From Actinomyces procaprae (lineage in GTDB: Bacteria; Actinomycetota; Actinomycetes; Actinomycetales; Actinomycetaceae), in assembly GCF_004798665.1 (NCBI RefSeq), contig NZ_CP039292.1, forward strand, positions 1,240,001-1,304,000: a DNA stretch of 64,000 nt, read 5' to 3'. A program made the translations under genes and the position numbers. Numbering within the stretch: position 1 is the first letter of the stretch; each line of letters begins with the position of its first letter. This document shows, in pieces, positions 19,166 through 23,792 of the stretch. The notes below the pieces were generated by a model. It was not told the origin of the DNA and made no database searches. It saw only the letters and a program-made list of their open reading frames with translations.

Positions 19166-21022
19166 ATGAGCTACCCGCCGCTGATCGTCAGCTCCCGCCA
19201 CGTCGGAGACGACGCCGACTGGTGGCGCCGAGCCGTCGTCTACCAGATCTACCCGCGCTCCTTCCAGGACTCCGACGGCGATGGCTACGGCGACATCCCC
19301 GGCATCACCGCCCGCCTGGACCACCTGGACGCCCTCGGCGTCGACGTCGTCTGGCTCAGCCCCGTCTACCGCTCCCCGCAGGACGACAATGGCTACGACA
19401 TCTCCGACTACGAGGACATCGACCCGATGTTCGGCTCGCTGGCGGACCTCGACGCCCTGATCGCGGGCCTGCATGCGCGCGGCATGCGCCTGGTGATGGA
19501 CCTGGTGGTCAACCACACCTCCGACGAGCACCCCTGGTTCGCCGACTCCCGCAGTGCGAAGGACAGCCCCAAGCGGGACTGGTATATCTGGCGGCCCGCC
19601 CGCGCGGTCCCCGGCTTGGCACCAGGCGCACCCGGCACCGAGCCCACGAACTGGGGCTCCTTCTTCTCCGGCCCCGCCTGGCAGTGGGATGAGGGCACGG
19701 GCGAGTTCTACCTGCACCTGTTCTCCACCAAGCAACCCGACCTGAACTGGGAGAACCCACTGGTGCGCCGCGCCGCCTACGACATGATGGGACGCTGGCT
19801 GGACCGCGGGGTGGACGGCTTCCGCATGGATGTCATCAACCTGATCTCCAAGACCTACCCGCTCGCCGACGGCCCGCGCCCCGACGGCGCCCTGTACGGC
19901 GACGGCGCGGCACTGGTCGCCAACGGGCCGCGCGTGCACGAGTTCCTGCAAGAGATGCACCAGGCGGTCTTCGCCCCGCGTGCCCGGCACATCATCACCG
20001 TTGGCGAGACTCCCGGCGTAACCGCCGCCGAGGCGTTGCGTTACACCGATCCCGCCCGTGCCGAGGTGGACATGGTCTTCCAGTTCGAGCATGTGGGCCT
20101 GACCGACGGGCCGGGCGGCAAGTTCGACCCGCAGCCGCTGGACCGGGTTGCTCTCAAGCGCAACCTCGCCGACTGGCAGGCGGCCCTCGCCCCCGACGTG
20201 GATGCCGACGGTCGTGTCACCGGCGAGCGCGGCTGGAACTCCAACTACTGGGACAACCACGACCAGCCCCGCGCCGTCTCTCGGTTCGGCGATGACGACC
20301 CCGCATGGAGGGAGACGAGTGCCAAGACCATCGCCTCCATCCTTCATCTTCACCGGGGTACGCCATACGTCTACCAGGGTGAGGAGCTCGGCCAGACCAA
20401 CACGGTCTTCCATGGCATCGACTCCTACCGGGACCTGGAGTCCATCAACTACTTCCGTGAGCGCACGGGCGTCGGCGATGACCCGGGCGCTCTGCTGAGC
20501 GGGATGTCCGTCAACTCCCGTGACAACGCCCGCACCCCGGTGCAGTGGGACGCGACCGCAAACGCCGGCTTCACCTCCGGCACCCCGTGGATCGACGTCA
20601 CCCCCAACTACACGCAGATCAACGCCGCCGCCCAAGTGGGCGTGCCCGACAGTGTATTCGAGCACTACCGGGCGCTGATCGGCCTGCGGCACTCCGATGA
20701 TGCCGTCGCCCTGGGCACTTTCCGACTGCTGGACGCCGATGCCGCCGAATCCTGGACGCTGCTGCGCGAGCACGTGGGGGCCGACGGCGAACGCGAGCAG
20801 ATCCTGCTGATCGCCTCGTGCACACGCGCCGGGCTGGAGACCGGGCCCGGTTCCGCCCTGCGCGGTCGACTGGCGGACGAGGGGCTGGACCTGGGGGAGT
20901 GGGCCGGCGCCGAGCGGGTGCTCATGGCCTCCCTGCCGGCGGGGAAGGCGGCCGCCTCCGGCACAGGGATGCCCGCGCACCTGGCGGGCTGGGACTCGGC
21001 GATCCTGCGCCGCACTCTGTGA
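19166..21022 (+). CDS. GH13 oligo-1,6-glucosidase/alpha-glucosidase (second module)
   Basis: A 618-residue cytoplasmic retaining glucosidase. The GH13 regions are DLVVNHTSD, GFRMDVINLISK (nucleophile Asp), ITVGETPG (acid/base Glu) and YWDNHDQPR, plus QPDLNW. GFRMDVINLISK is the textbook form of oligo-1,6-glucosidases and dextran glucosidases, so isomalto-oligosaccharides or panose are likely substrates. It is about 50 residues longer than the first GH13 enzyme, mostly in the C-terminal beta domain and the loop after region I. The start at 19166 follows GGAAGG. It completes the second uptake module controlled by the ROK protein. Confidence 0.93.
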   Translation: MSYPPLIVSSRHVGDDADWWRRAVVYQIYPRSFQDSDGDGYGDIPGITARLDHLDALGVDVVWLSPVYRSPQDDNGYDISDYEDIDPMFGSLADLDALIAGLHARGMRLVMDLVVNHTSDEHPWFADSRSAKDSPKRDWYIWRPARAVPGLAPGAPGTEPTNWGSFFSGPAWQWDEGTGEFYLHLFSTKQPDLNWENPLVRRAAYDMMGRWLDRGVDGFRMDVINLISKTYPLADGPRPDGALYGDGAALVANGPRVHEFLQEMHQAVFAPRARHIITVGETPGVTAAEALRYTDPARAEVDMVFQFEHVGLTDGPGGKFDPQPLDRVALKRNLADWQAALAPDVDADGRVTGERGWNSNYWDNHDQPRAVSRFGDDDPAWRETSAKTIASILHLHRGTPYVYQGEELGQTNTVFHGIDSYRDLESINYFRERTGVGDDPGALLSGMSVNSRDNARTPVQWDATANAGFTSGTPWIDVTPNYTQINAAAQVGVPDSVFEHYRALIGLRHSDDAVALGTFRLLDADAAESWTLLREHVGADGEREQILLIASCTRAGLETGPGSALRGRLADEGLDLGEWAGAERVLMASLPAGKAAASGTGMPAHLAGWDSAILRRTL

Positions 21023-21038
21023 CACCCCGAAATGCGAC

Positions 21039-21044
21039 TATGGT
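21039..21044 (+). promoter_or_regulatory. Candidate -10 for a leaderless ATPase transcript
   Basis: TATGGT lies seven bases before the ATG of the ATPase gene, and no Shine-Dalgarno is present. In actinobacteria a TAnnnT at this distance usually marks a leaderless mRNA starting at the A of the start codon. It would give the cassette its own promoter, independent of the GH13 gene 29 bp upstream. Confidence 0.45.
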
Positions 21045-21051
21045 TTAGGCC

Positions 21052-22359
21052 ATGGCCCATGCACGACTGACGCAGGTGCAGCTCGATCGTTTCAAGTCCT
21101 ACCGGTCCGCCGTGATGGCACTCGACCGGCTGACGATTGTCACTGGGCGTAACTCCAGTGGCAAGTCGAACATTCTCGACGCCATTGAGGTTCTCGCACG
21201 CCTCTCCGGTGGCGAGTCACTCGCCCAGGCGCTTGACGGTGCAGGCCGGGAACGCAGTCCTGTGCGAGGCGGCTCGCGCGGATGTGCGCCATTCGGCGAG
21301 GACTCCTTCGCGCTGGGATGCCTTATCGATATGGGCGAGGACCGTGTGCTCGACTACAAGATCGAGGTCGAGGTCGAGCCGATTCTGCGGATTCGGCGAG
21401 AAAGCCTGATTGAGCGGGGAACGCGGGAGCGTCAGTGGTTCGAAGTGCGGCATGAGCAGCCGGGAGGACTTCAGGTCGCATACGCGAACGGTAAACGAGG
21501 CAAGAATCCAATGGTGACGGTGCGCGACGACCGCAGCGTCCTTGGGCAACTCAAGACAGCACTAATTGCCGACACCAAGACGACTCAGGATCTTATCGGT
21601 CGCGCTGCGACGGTCAGCGCAGTCCTCGCCAATACTTTCCATCTTGATCCCGTTCCCCAGCTCATGCGGGACTATGTTTCACCACGGGAGTCTCGGCTGC
21701 GTAGAAACGGTGAGAACCTCGCAGCCGCGGTCATGGATCTACAGAGCAGGGATCCCGCGCGGTTCGGCAGGCTTCAGGACATCGTTCGCAAGGTTGCCGA
21801 CTGTGATGTGCACGCGCTCGACTTCTCGCGTACGGACGAGGGCCTGATCATGCTTGCCCTTGATGAGGGACGTAGCCGGAAAACGACTGCCAGGCTCATG
21901 AGCGACGGGCTCCTACGGTTCATCGCCGTGGCGACGGCGCTGATGACCGCGTCAACATCGCTGGAGGTCGGGGAACCGGACGCGATCGGTCTGCAAGGCC
22001 AAGGCCCCATTCCTGGGGTAGTACTTGCAATTGAGGAGATCGAGAATGGGCTCCATCCTTCCCATGCTGCACGTCTGCTCGAGATCGTAAAGGAGGCGGC
22101 TAACCAGGTTGGTGTCTCGGTTCTCTTGACTACCCACAGTCCCGCCCTGCTCGACTGCCTGACCGGGGACCTTCTCGGCAGCGTGGTCGTGTGTCATGCG
22201 GGCAGGATTTCGCGAATGCAGGAACTCCCGGGATATGCCGCGGCCATGGCCGGCGGGACGCTCGGCCGGGTGGTTTCCAAGGGCGAGCTAGTTTCCGACG
22301 AAGAGACGCCTGAGGCTGACTACTCGGAGTTCATGCGACTCATAGGGGTGGACGCATGA
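21052..22359 (+). CDS. AAA_21/OLD-like ATPase of a two-gene cassette (candidate defence system)
   Basis: A 435-residue ABC/SMC-type ATPase. Walker A is GRNSSGKS (residues 32-39), the signature-like block is MSDGLLRF (about 282), Walker B is VLAIEEIENGLHP (about 322-334) and the switch histidine is in TTHSPALLD (about 360). The N-terminus (LTQVQLDRFKSYRSA) is typical of OLD, RecF-like and PtuA-like proteins. The protein ends soon after the ATPase core, so the TOPRIM nuclease domain of full OLD/GajA proteins is missing. The next gene, a PIN-like nuclease, overlaps by ATGA and probably supplies the effector. Codon choice is less GC-biased than in flanking genes, suggesting transfer. The function is inferred; no close named family is claimed. 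Confidence 0.85.
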   Translation: MAHARLTQVQLDRFKSYRSAVMALDRLTIVTGRNSSGKSNILDAIEVLARLSGGESLAQALDGAGRERSPVRGGSRGCAPFGEDSFALGCLIDMGEDRVLDYKIEVEVEPILRIRRESLIERGTRERQWFEVRHEQPGGLQVAYANGKRGKNPMVTVRDDRSVLGQLKTALIADTKTTQDLIGRAATVSAVLANTFHLDPVPQLMRDYVSPRESRLRRNGENLAAAVMDLQSRDPARFGRLQDIVRKVADCDVHALDFSRTDEGLIMLALDEGRSRKTTARLMSDGLLRFIAVATALMTASTSLEVGEPDAIGLQGQGPIPGVVLAIEEIENGLHPSHAARLLEIVKEAANQVGVSVLLTTHSPALLDCLTGDLLGSVVVCHAGRISRMQELPGYAAAMAGGTLGRVVSKGELVSDEETPEADYSEFMRLIGVDA

Positions 22360-22847
22360 CCATCTGGTTCATCGACTCCTCGGTTCTCGACCACCTCGTT
22401 CCGGTTCCGGGATGGCCCAAGCCCGACTCCGACGATCGCCGCCAGGTGAAAACGCTCATGAAGCAGCGCACTGAGGCGGGTGACAGGTTCGTCCTGCCCA
22501 TCACCGCCGTCGTCGAGACCGGTAACCACATCTGTCAGGTCAAAGACGGTGATCAGCGCAGGCAGGCCGCTGTGCAGTTGGAAAAGATCCTTGGGTTCGT
22601 CGTCGATGGCAAGGCACCCTGGGCACTTGATGAGGTCCAGTGGGATGAGAAATTCCTCCGGGCGTTCCTGAACGGTGGCAGCACAGGGCAGACCTGGGTA
22701 CAGCTCGCGACCCAGGGCAAGGCCGGTTTGGGCGGAGGCGATCTCACACTGGTCGTTGAGCGGGACCAATACTGTGAGCGGACGGGGATTCCGCGCGAGC
22801 GCGTGGAAGTCTGGACACTCGATGCCGCCCTGAAGGCGTACCGCTAA
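22356..22847 (+). CDS. PIN-like nuclease partner of the ATPase
   Basis: A 163-residue protein I assign to the PIN-domain fold from the pattern of acidic residues after hydrophobic strands: Asp7 (IWFIDSSVL), Glu54 (ITAVVETGN), Asp129 (GLGGGDLTLV) and Asp156 (VEVWTLDAAL). PIN domains are metal-dependent RNases, common as toxins and effectors. It is translationally coupled to the ATPase (overlap 22356-22359), so a fixed ratio or complex is likely. It is not paired with a small antitoxin gene, unlike VapC, so the ATPase probably controls it. The domain call rests on pattern, not a database search, so an unrelated fold remains possible. Confidence 0.65.
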   Translation: MTIWFIDSSVLDHLVPVPGWPKPDSDDRRQVKTLMKQRTEAGDRFVLPITAVVETGNHICQVKDGDQRRQAAVQLEKILGFVVDGKAPWALDEVQWDEKFLRAFLNGGSTGQTWVQLATQGKAGLGGGDLTLVVERDQYCERTGIPRERVEVWTLDAALKAYR

Positions 22848-23012
22848 GCCTCTTGTCATCCTGTGCCGTCGGCTGTGAGAAGTACCCGGATTCGGGACGA
22901 ACGGGTGATTCCCGCTGATTCTCGATTTCACGATCGTTGGAATTATGTGGTTTGCGGGCCGGTCCTTGGGTCCGCCGACGGCGTTTGTCCAGAATCCGGA
23001 CAGTGAACCTGT

Positions 23013-23792
23013 TTACGGAGCGTTATCGTCGGCGGGGTTCGGCGTCCGACTCAGCCACCATACGAGCAGTGCGGCCGCGGCCAGCTGGGCGGAGGTGATG
23101 AGCACGGTGGGCGCATCGGGCGCCGCCCAGGACTGCTCCCGCGGAGCCAGCGCGTCGAGGAACACTCCGACCGCGTTCGAGCCCATGTGCATTCCGAGGG
23201 CGAAGAACAAGGACCGCAGCCGTACCACCGACCAGCCGGCCACCAGACCGAAGACCAGCTTGTCAGGAACCTCGACCGCGTATGCCGATGCGGTCAGCCC
23301 GGAATCCAGCCAGGTGGGCAGGTGCCAGGCCACGAACGCCAGGGCGGTGGCGGATATGGCCAACGGCGCGCCCCAGCGCCGGAGCAGTGGGTCCAGAAGG
23401 ACGCGGCGCAGGGCAACCTCCTCGGGAATCGCATTCAGGCAGCAGCCGACAAGCACCGCCATGCCGACAGCGCTCAATAGCTGGGCCGGTGCGGCAGCGG
23501 TGACGGCTTTCATGCAACCGGGCTCCTCCTGCGCGCCCAGGAGGAGCCCGCCAATGACCGGTGCGGCGGCACCGACTGCGAGCAGGGTCCACGTTCGCGA
23601 TCTCCCGTCCGAGTACATGAGATCGCGCCACGGCCGCTGCTCCGCCAGGCGCCAGTAGCACAGTGCGCACAGGTAGAACACCAGGAGCAGCAACCGCCAC
23701 GGGCCTCCGCTCAGCGCCAAGAAGATGGCCGCTATGGGAGCGGCAATGAGCAGGATCAGAAGGAGGACGGTGGCTTGCGGGCGAGCGGACAT
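23013..23792 (-). CDS. CPBP-family intramembrane glutamic protease (CAAX protease/Abi)
   Basis: A 259-residue membrane protein with about seven or eight helices. The family's conserved sites are present: EEVALRR (about residue 124, catalytic Glu pair and Arg), AWHLPTW (His, about 157) and GMHMGSNAVG (His and Asn, about 200). Members cleave prenylated or membrane proteins, process peptides or act in bacteriocin immunity and phage abortive infection; none of these can be chosen here. The ATG at 23792 begins MSARPQATVLLLILL. The ClC gene ends 16 bp upstream on the same strand, so the two may be cotranscribed. Confidence 0.85.
   Translation of the reverse strand: MSARPQATVLLLILLIAAPIAAIFLALSGGPWRLLLLVFYLCALCYWRLAEQRPWRDLMYSDGRSRTWTLLAVGAAAPVIGGLLLGAQEEPGCMKAVTAAAPAQLLSAVGMAVLVGCCLNAIPEEVALRRVLLDPLLRRWGAPLAISATALAFVAWHLPTWLDSGLTASAYAVEVPDKLVFGLVAGWSVVRLRSLFFALGMHMGSNAVGVFLDALAPREQSWAAPDAPTVLITSAQLAAAALLVWWLSRTPNPADDNAP

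Follow-up and report, generated by a model that had tools for sequence, protein, structure and literature searches.

The closest described relatives of the locus reported here are systems in which an OLD-type ATP-binding cassette (ABC) ATPase is paired with a nuclease. In PARIS, a hexamer of the ATPase AriA is reported to retain AriB until a phage protein binds, after which AriB cuts tRNA (PMC12409363). Septu is likewise reported to cleave tRNA-Tyr upon infection (PMC13096335), and WonAB, whose nuclease is a protein distinct from its OLD-like ABC ATPase, is described as required for defence against phage ICP1 (PMC12137116). According to a 2026 survey, OLD-ABC ATPases near BREX loci pair with HNH, PD-(D/E)XK or PIN nucleases (594 taxa; PMC12839542), so by that account the OLD-ABC/PIN pair is already in print as a prediction. 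PIN effectors in defence also have precedent, because the PIN nuclease residues of the DefensePredictor systems DS-3 and DS-5 are reported to be required for phage defence (PMC13092281). Here we describe a two-gene locus (21039..22847) of Actinomyces procaprae, contig NZ_CP039292.1, within a stretch of 64,000 nucleotides that was analysed as a whole and is called the window below. Judged by its profile matches, the pair, M07A and M07B, is a member of the candidate defence family PDC-M07, and it is probably a PIN-effector abortive-infection module.

The family assignment comes from PADLOC-DB 2.0.0, in which M07A matches PDC-M07A at 1.3e-159 and M07B matches PDC-M07B at 2.3e-47, nearly over the full length of both adjacent genes and with no difference from the family seen. 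All six PADLOC families matched by M07B are PDC-M07B, and M07A also matches the AriA model at 1.4e-29. An earlier note on this DNA had proposed a candidate defence system with an effector unlike those of Septu, Gabija and PARIS; a defence role is probable, but a new system type is ruled out, as the PADLOC-DB of 2023 already holds the family. PDC systems are described as unpublished candidates (PMC11811056), found by guilt-by-embedding, with most of those discussed awaiting validation (PMC12988326).

The likeness to known systems is close in logic and differs in the effector. PARIS likewise joins an ABC ATPase sensor to a nuclease in two genes, but AriB is a TOPRIM nuclease whereas M07B models as a PIN domain. 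The PtuA proteins of Septu and retron-Eco7/Ec78/Ec83 resemble M07A, yet their PtuB partner is an HNH protein where M07B is predicted to be PIN, and no retron part was seen at the window locus. Gabija combines the TOPRIM protein GajA with a UvrD-like helicase, GajB, and classical OLD and GajA proteins end in a TOPRIM domain, unlike M07A, which has none, and its PIN-like partner of 163 residues. WonB is described as a predicted PD-(D/E)xK nuclease (PMC12137116), in contrast to M07B with its predicted PIN fold. As in the window pair, the PtuA-like ATPase of ptuXYZ adjoins a VapC-like PIN-domain protein; there, however, the PIN-like domain is described as lacking catalytic residues, with a YoeB-like RNase fusion and a DUF262 nuclease as third gene (PMC11980606), whereas M07B is by prediction a PIN domain alone, with its acids conserved. 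The BREX-linked OLD-ABC and PIN-endoRNase pairs follow the same logic, a PIN RNase replacing TOPRIM; the BREX association is theirs, and they can be compared with PDC-M07 by description only (PMC12839542). DS-3 is reported as a single protein and DS-5 has a DUF5830/AcrIF4-like partner (PMC13092281), whereas M07B is partnered by an ABC ATPase. Finally, M07B has the predicted fold of VapC and FitB, but in VapBC and FitAB the antitoxin is a small DNA-binding protein, and the partner of M07B is an ABC ATPase of 435 residues encoded upstream.

The features of the locus are as follows, with open reading frame (ORF) calls and motif positions taken from the window sequence, and with residue counts from 78 aligned pairs (L069, L078, L093 and L102 were dropped as truncated or odd, and the stretches of L070 and L110 hold no ATPase).

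21002..21022, plus strand: 3' end of the alpha-glucosidase gene, left copy of a 21-bp duplicated tail
21039..21044, plus strand: TATGGT, leaderless-type -10 element; the ATG follows after 7 nt
21052..22359, plus strand: M07A, OLD/PtuA-like ABC ATPase, 435 residues, ATG start
21145..21168, plus strand: M07A Walker A, GRNSSGKS, residues 32-39; G32, N34, G37 and K38 in 78/78
21898..21921, plus strand: M07A ABC signature, MSDGLLRF, residues 283-290; S284, D285 and G286 in 78/78
22030..22059, plus strand: M07A Walker B and D-loop, IEEIENGLHP, residues 327-336; E328 and H335 in 78/78
22312..22356, plus strand: M07A C-terminal tail, residues 421-435, a possible partner-docking segment
22356..22847, plus strand: M07B, predicted PIN-domain nuclease, 163 residues, ATG start
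22374..22376, plus strand: M07B Asp7 codon, predicted first active-site acid; D in 78/78
22515..22517, plus strand: M07B Glu54 codon, predicted second active-site acid; 67/67, mostly found via this motif
22740..22742, plus strand: M07B Asp129 codon, predicted third active-site acid; D in 78/78
22821..22823, plus strand: M07B Asp156 codon, predicted fourth active-site acid; D in 75/78, E in 3/78
22858..22878, plus strand: second, stranded copy of the 3' end of the alpha-glucosidase gene, marking the right edge of the putatively inserted unit

The two-gene cassette, its named motifs and the four acids were thus all found where the earlier note had placed them. The translational coupling it proposed is borne out by the overlap of the two ORFs, the M07A stop and M07B start sharing ATGA. 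M07A further has TTHSPALL from residue 360, with the H-loop present, and matches Pfam AAA_21 (1.9e-28) and AAA_15 (9e-18). That the ATPase is without TOPRIM, as also claimed, agrees with Pfam, since no TOPRIM was among the nine families matched by its 435 residues at E ≤ 1, and an OLD protein with TOPRIM in cis is accordingly rejected. M07B alone gave no significant Pfam match and no NCBIfam match, and its sequence profile returned a single meaningless match from the PDB. The claim of a less GC-biased codon use held too: overall GC is 0.615 in M07A and 0.624 in M07B, and GC at third codon positions is 0.69 and 0.77 respectively, against 0.83-0.90 in four neighbouring genes. The flanks hold the alpha-glucosidase gene and two further genes, one resembling a CPBP protease and the other a ClC channel (names from inspection of the sequences); the neighbours scanned here are ordinary. 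Scans of 20900-23100 gave no Rfam match at E 0.1; a terminator scan found none, and a sigma-70 scan found one promoter-like site, on the minus strand.

The second protein, guessed earlier to be PIN-like, does model as one: its predicted structure is a VapC/FitB-type PIN domain, a VapC-like alpha/beta/alpha fold, with a predicted local distance difference test (pLDDT) score of 93.6. PIN domains carry three to four acids, at strand 1, in a helix, at a helix start and at a strand end, and D7, E54, D129 and D156 of M07B fit this layout. As the pattern ETGNHI served to find the 80 genome loci, residues 54-59 are conserved in them by construction; the conservation of D7, D129 and D156 is independent of that pattern, and two genus copies from a phmmer search read ETGAHI and retain E54. 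We regard M07B as a predicted PIN nuclease or ribonuclease. M07A is predicted to fold as an OLD/PtuA-like ABC head ending in a short tail, with residues 411-435 modelled at low confidence (pLDDT 65-69). Its top Foldseek matches are the PtuA proteins of Septu and retron-Eco7/Ec78/Ec83, which with VIA-align tied with Rad50 and SMC heads. A tail motif like [FY]x[DE]FxRLLG occurs in 37 of 46 actinobacterial M07A proteins and in none of 35 other homologues, and this variable C-terminal tail may be a docking segment for M07B.

The earlier note had suggested examining whether the two genes stay together, and they do. Among the genome loci, the best 80 of 259 related stretches, with genes called by a crude script, M07A lies no more than 150 nt upstream of M07B in 79, the exception (L070) being a contig that starts at M07B; it is also upstream in two of three viral-contig loci. 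Across the 78 aligned pairs r was 0.93, a value that partly reflects shared descent. The hosts span at least seven phyla by our own assignment (Actinomycetota, Cyanobacteriota, Chloroflexota, Pseudomonadota, Verrucomicrobiota, Bacteroidota and Bacillota), several of them being metagenome-assembled genomes. M07B relatives were found in 10 of 72,556 plasmid records (four conjugative, three mobilizable, three non-mobilizable), with an ATPase annotated directly upstream in all six plasmids read, and in none of 50,697 phage records. On a mobilizable Acinetobacter plasmid of 9.1 kb (NZ_CP039153.1, L160), M07AB adjoins a RelE/ParE module and a gene for SMR efflux.

Closer to home the pair is patchy. 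At class level, 6 of 394 genomes, our own included, gave matches, with only partial or broken ones in G371, G186, G185 and G144; the M07B match is split across about 2.5 kb in G186 and frame-shifted in G371, which suggests interruption or decay. Among 59 relatives, our own genome counted, 11 gave matches, of which that in G005 is a fragment. The search covered 48 other genomes of the genus, and for 20 of them the region downstream of the glucosidase was compared; M07 sequence was present there in five: both genes in G015, G031 and G032, a copy lacking the gene junction in G471, and remnants only in G005.

The leaderless-type promoter claimed for the cassette is supported and can be extended. 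The earlier note begins the cassette at 21039, where TATGGT starts, and each of the six genus copies compared has TANNNT 6-7 nt ahead of the M07A ATG. Of 46 actinobacterial M07A genes, 34 have the motif 5-9 nt upstream of the chosen start; the corresponding counts are 25 of 194 for other gene starts and 44 of 4,567 for random NTG. In this comparison M07A starts were picked by rule, each other gene start is the first NTG in a called ORF, and genomes that are related do not count as independent.

Empty sites indicate how the pair may have come to lie here. In G014, G467 and G470, whose glucosidase is 88-93% identical to that of the window, the gene joins directly to sequence that starts at window position 22855, and it follows that the window has the last 21 bases of the glucosidase gene twice. 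The two copies, 21002-21022 in the gene and 22858-22878 after M07B, are alike at 16 of 21 bases. Most simply, the unit 21023-22857 would have arrived carrying its own version of the glucosidase gene end; alternatively, the relatives may have lost the unit between repeats. Just past M07B, at 22883-23002, lies a repeat of about 120 bp with 21-bp inverted ends (CGTTTGTCC[CA]GAATCCGGACA type). Such ends have 17 matches (≤3 mismatches) in the own genome, against none for the reversed pattern, several times paired about 120 bp apart (31836, 201393, 1037378, 2125961 and 3114136), and the repeat therefore resembles a miniature inverted-repeat transposable element; G014, G467 and G470 also have it at their empty sites. 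In Actinomyces relatives (for example, L148 and L149) the interval between the glucosidase and ClC genes ranges from about 30 bp to 6 kb, with differing gene sets. We rejected this interval as a defence hotspot, since in G017 and G473, the two other genomes read there, it holds metabolic and transport genes (names from inspection).

The defence context of the PDC-M07 pair is real but uneven. HsdM and HsdS lie upstream and HsdR downstream of the pair in 4 of the 80 loci (L089, L100, L103 and L107, with extra ORFs between HsdS and M07A in L103) and in none of 20 controls, and restriction genes occur at a greater distance in L028 and L080. The row HsdM-HsdS-M07A-M07B-HsdR recurs on plasmids of Vibrio campbellii and Photobacterium damselae, two of the six read, and PglW adjoins the pair in Corynebacterium kalidii (L035). 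PADLOC families matched at E ≤ 1e-20 numbered 128 near 16 M07 loci (141 proteins) and 40 in 16 controls (147 proteins), from 20 loci prepared per side; these are not counts of systems, because many models match the same gene. Among the families listed (25 per side), the commonest M07-side model was mad3 (six members, including likely transporter ATPases), and HerA, GajB and RTasHel matched one control member each; M07-side matches include two cyclase and PDC-S13 members. Elsewhere in the own genome, about 1.1 Mb away from the window, three more OLD-like ATPases (G000:C1, 2435.7-2438.6 kb and 2450.4-2451.5 kb; L026 and L027) have HEC-01A as best PADLOC match (1.6e-64, 8.6e-82 and 5.6e-118) and mark a possible defence region.

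Several points weigh against the reading of the pair as a PIN-effector abortive-infection module. Foldseek matches of M07B to PIN domains are weak (best 5.3e-3, none ≤ 0.001), and a VapC-like fold suits a plain toxin-antitoxin role too. The window copy sits among metabolic and transport genes. When 30 hand-picked neighbours from 14 loci were scanned singly against PADLOC at a cut-off of 1e-15, 27 gave no match, two matched the mad3 ATPase model (1e-26 and 3.5e-34) and look like transporter ATPases, and PglW was the sole clear defence gene. For two other PADLOC candidates, PDC-M63AB and PDC-S04, testing in their host is reported to have shown no sign of defence (PMC12409345). The open-licence literature, preprints excluded, yielded neither the name 'PDC-M07' nor an activity or phage test of any member. 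The earlier note had asked whether orthologues are always in housekeeping contexts: some relatives lie inside type I restriction operons, but at seven of the eight actinobacterial loci sampled no scanned neighbour is clearly a defence gene.

These ordinary neighbours, and the fact that the window copy and both genes of G015, G031 and G032 all lie downstream of the same glucosidase, would suit a pair with a housekeeping part in RNA processing or repair and no link to conflict. The patchy presence, decayed copies and plasmid carriage argue otherwise, as do the empty sites in G014 and G470 despite flanking genes 92-93% identical, and we consider such a role very improbable. In a toxin-antitoxin (addiction) module, M07A would be the ATPase antitoxin to a PIN toxin, M07B, the pair would be retained chiefly because losing it is punished, and phage defence would be secondary or absent. 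In favour of this, the pair is found on two small plasmids whose displayed stretches list no restriction genes, and one of these plasmids bears the RelE/ParE module. The predicted VapC/FitB-like fold of M07B is consistent with such a module, and NetFlax is reported to have validated AAA ATPases that neutralise the RNase-like toxin AarT and TOPRIM toxins, with AarT:AAA negative in the BASEL phage screen (PMC10440598). Yet M07A matches no Pfam DNA-binding model like that of VapB, it retains full ABC ATPase motifs that neutralisation alone would not need, and some copies are embedded within restriction operons; an addiction module is hence rather unlikely. Those operons might instead mark the pair as a restriction helper, a backup firing when a phage blocks restriction, an idea put forward for the OLD-ABC modules of BREX loci, with backup suicidal effectors suggested (PMC12839542). 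The position between HsdS and HsdR at four genome loci and on two plasmids, and PglW beside L035, agree with this, but 74 of the 80 genome loci are, within the stretch available for each, without relatives of the HsdM, HsdS and HsdR queries (other restriction types were not searched there), and we hold a helper function to be improbable.

Because PARIS, Septu and WonAB provide precedents, a sensor ATPase with a translation-stopping nuclease is the best reading of the PDC-M07 pair, and we think it fairly probable that M07A senses an invader and unleashes the predicted PIN RNase M07B, with translation arrest in the infected cell. M07A would keep M07B inactive until triggered, by analogy with AriA and AriB, the trigger being phage or plasmid entry; freed M07B would then cut tRNA or rRNA, as VapC toxins and the effectors of Septu, retron-Eco7 and PARIS do, and this cleavage would stop translation. 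More tentatively, PDC-M07 could be a widespread form of ATPase-gated PIN RNase immunity, mechanistically combining PARIS/Septu sensing with a VapC-type toxin, in which the PIN domain is held by the M07A tail (as VapC by VapB), released on infection and directed at tRNA or the rRNA sarcin-ricin loop. The actinobacterial message would be leaderless, so that translation could persist when a phage remodels canonical initiation.

If this holds, a PIN RNase would be added to the HNH, TOPRIM and PD-(D/E)xK effectors that act under OLD-type ABC ATPase sensors, and the world of VapC toxins would be linked to PARIS and Septu immunity, in a family whose relatives reach across at least seven phyla and onto conjugative plasmids.
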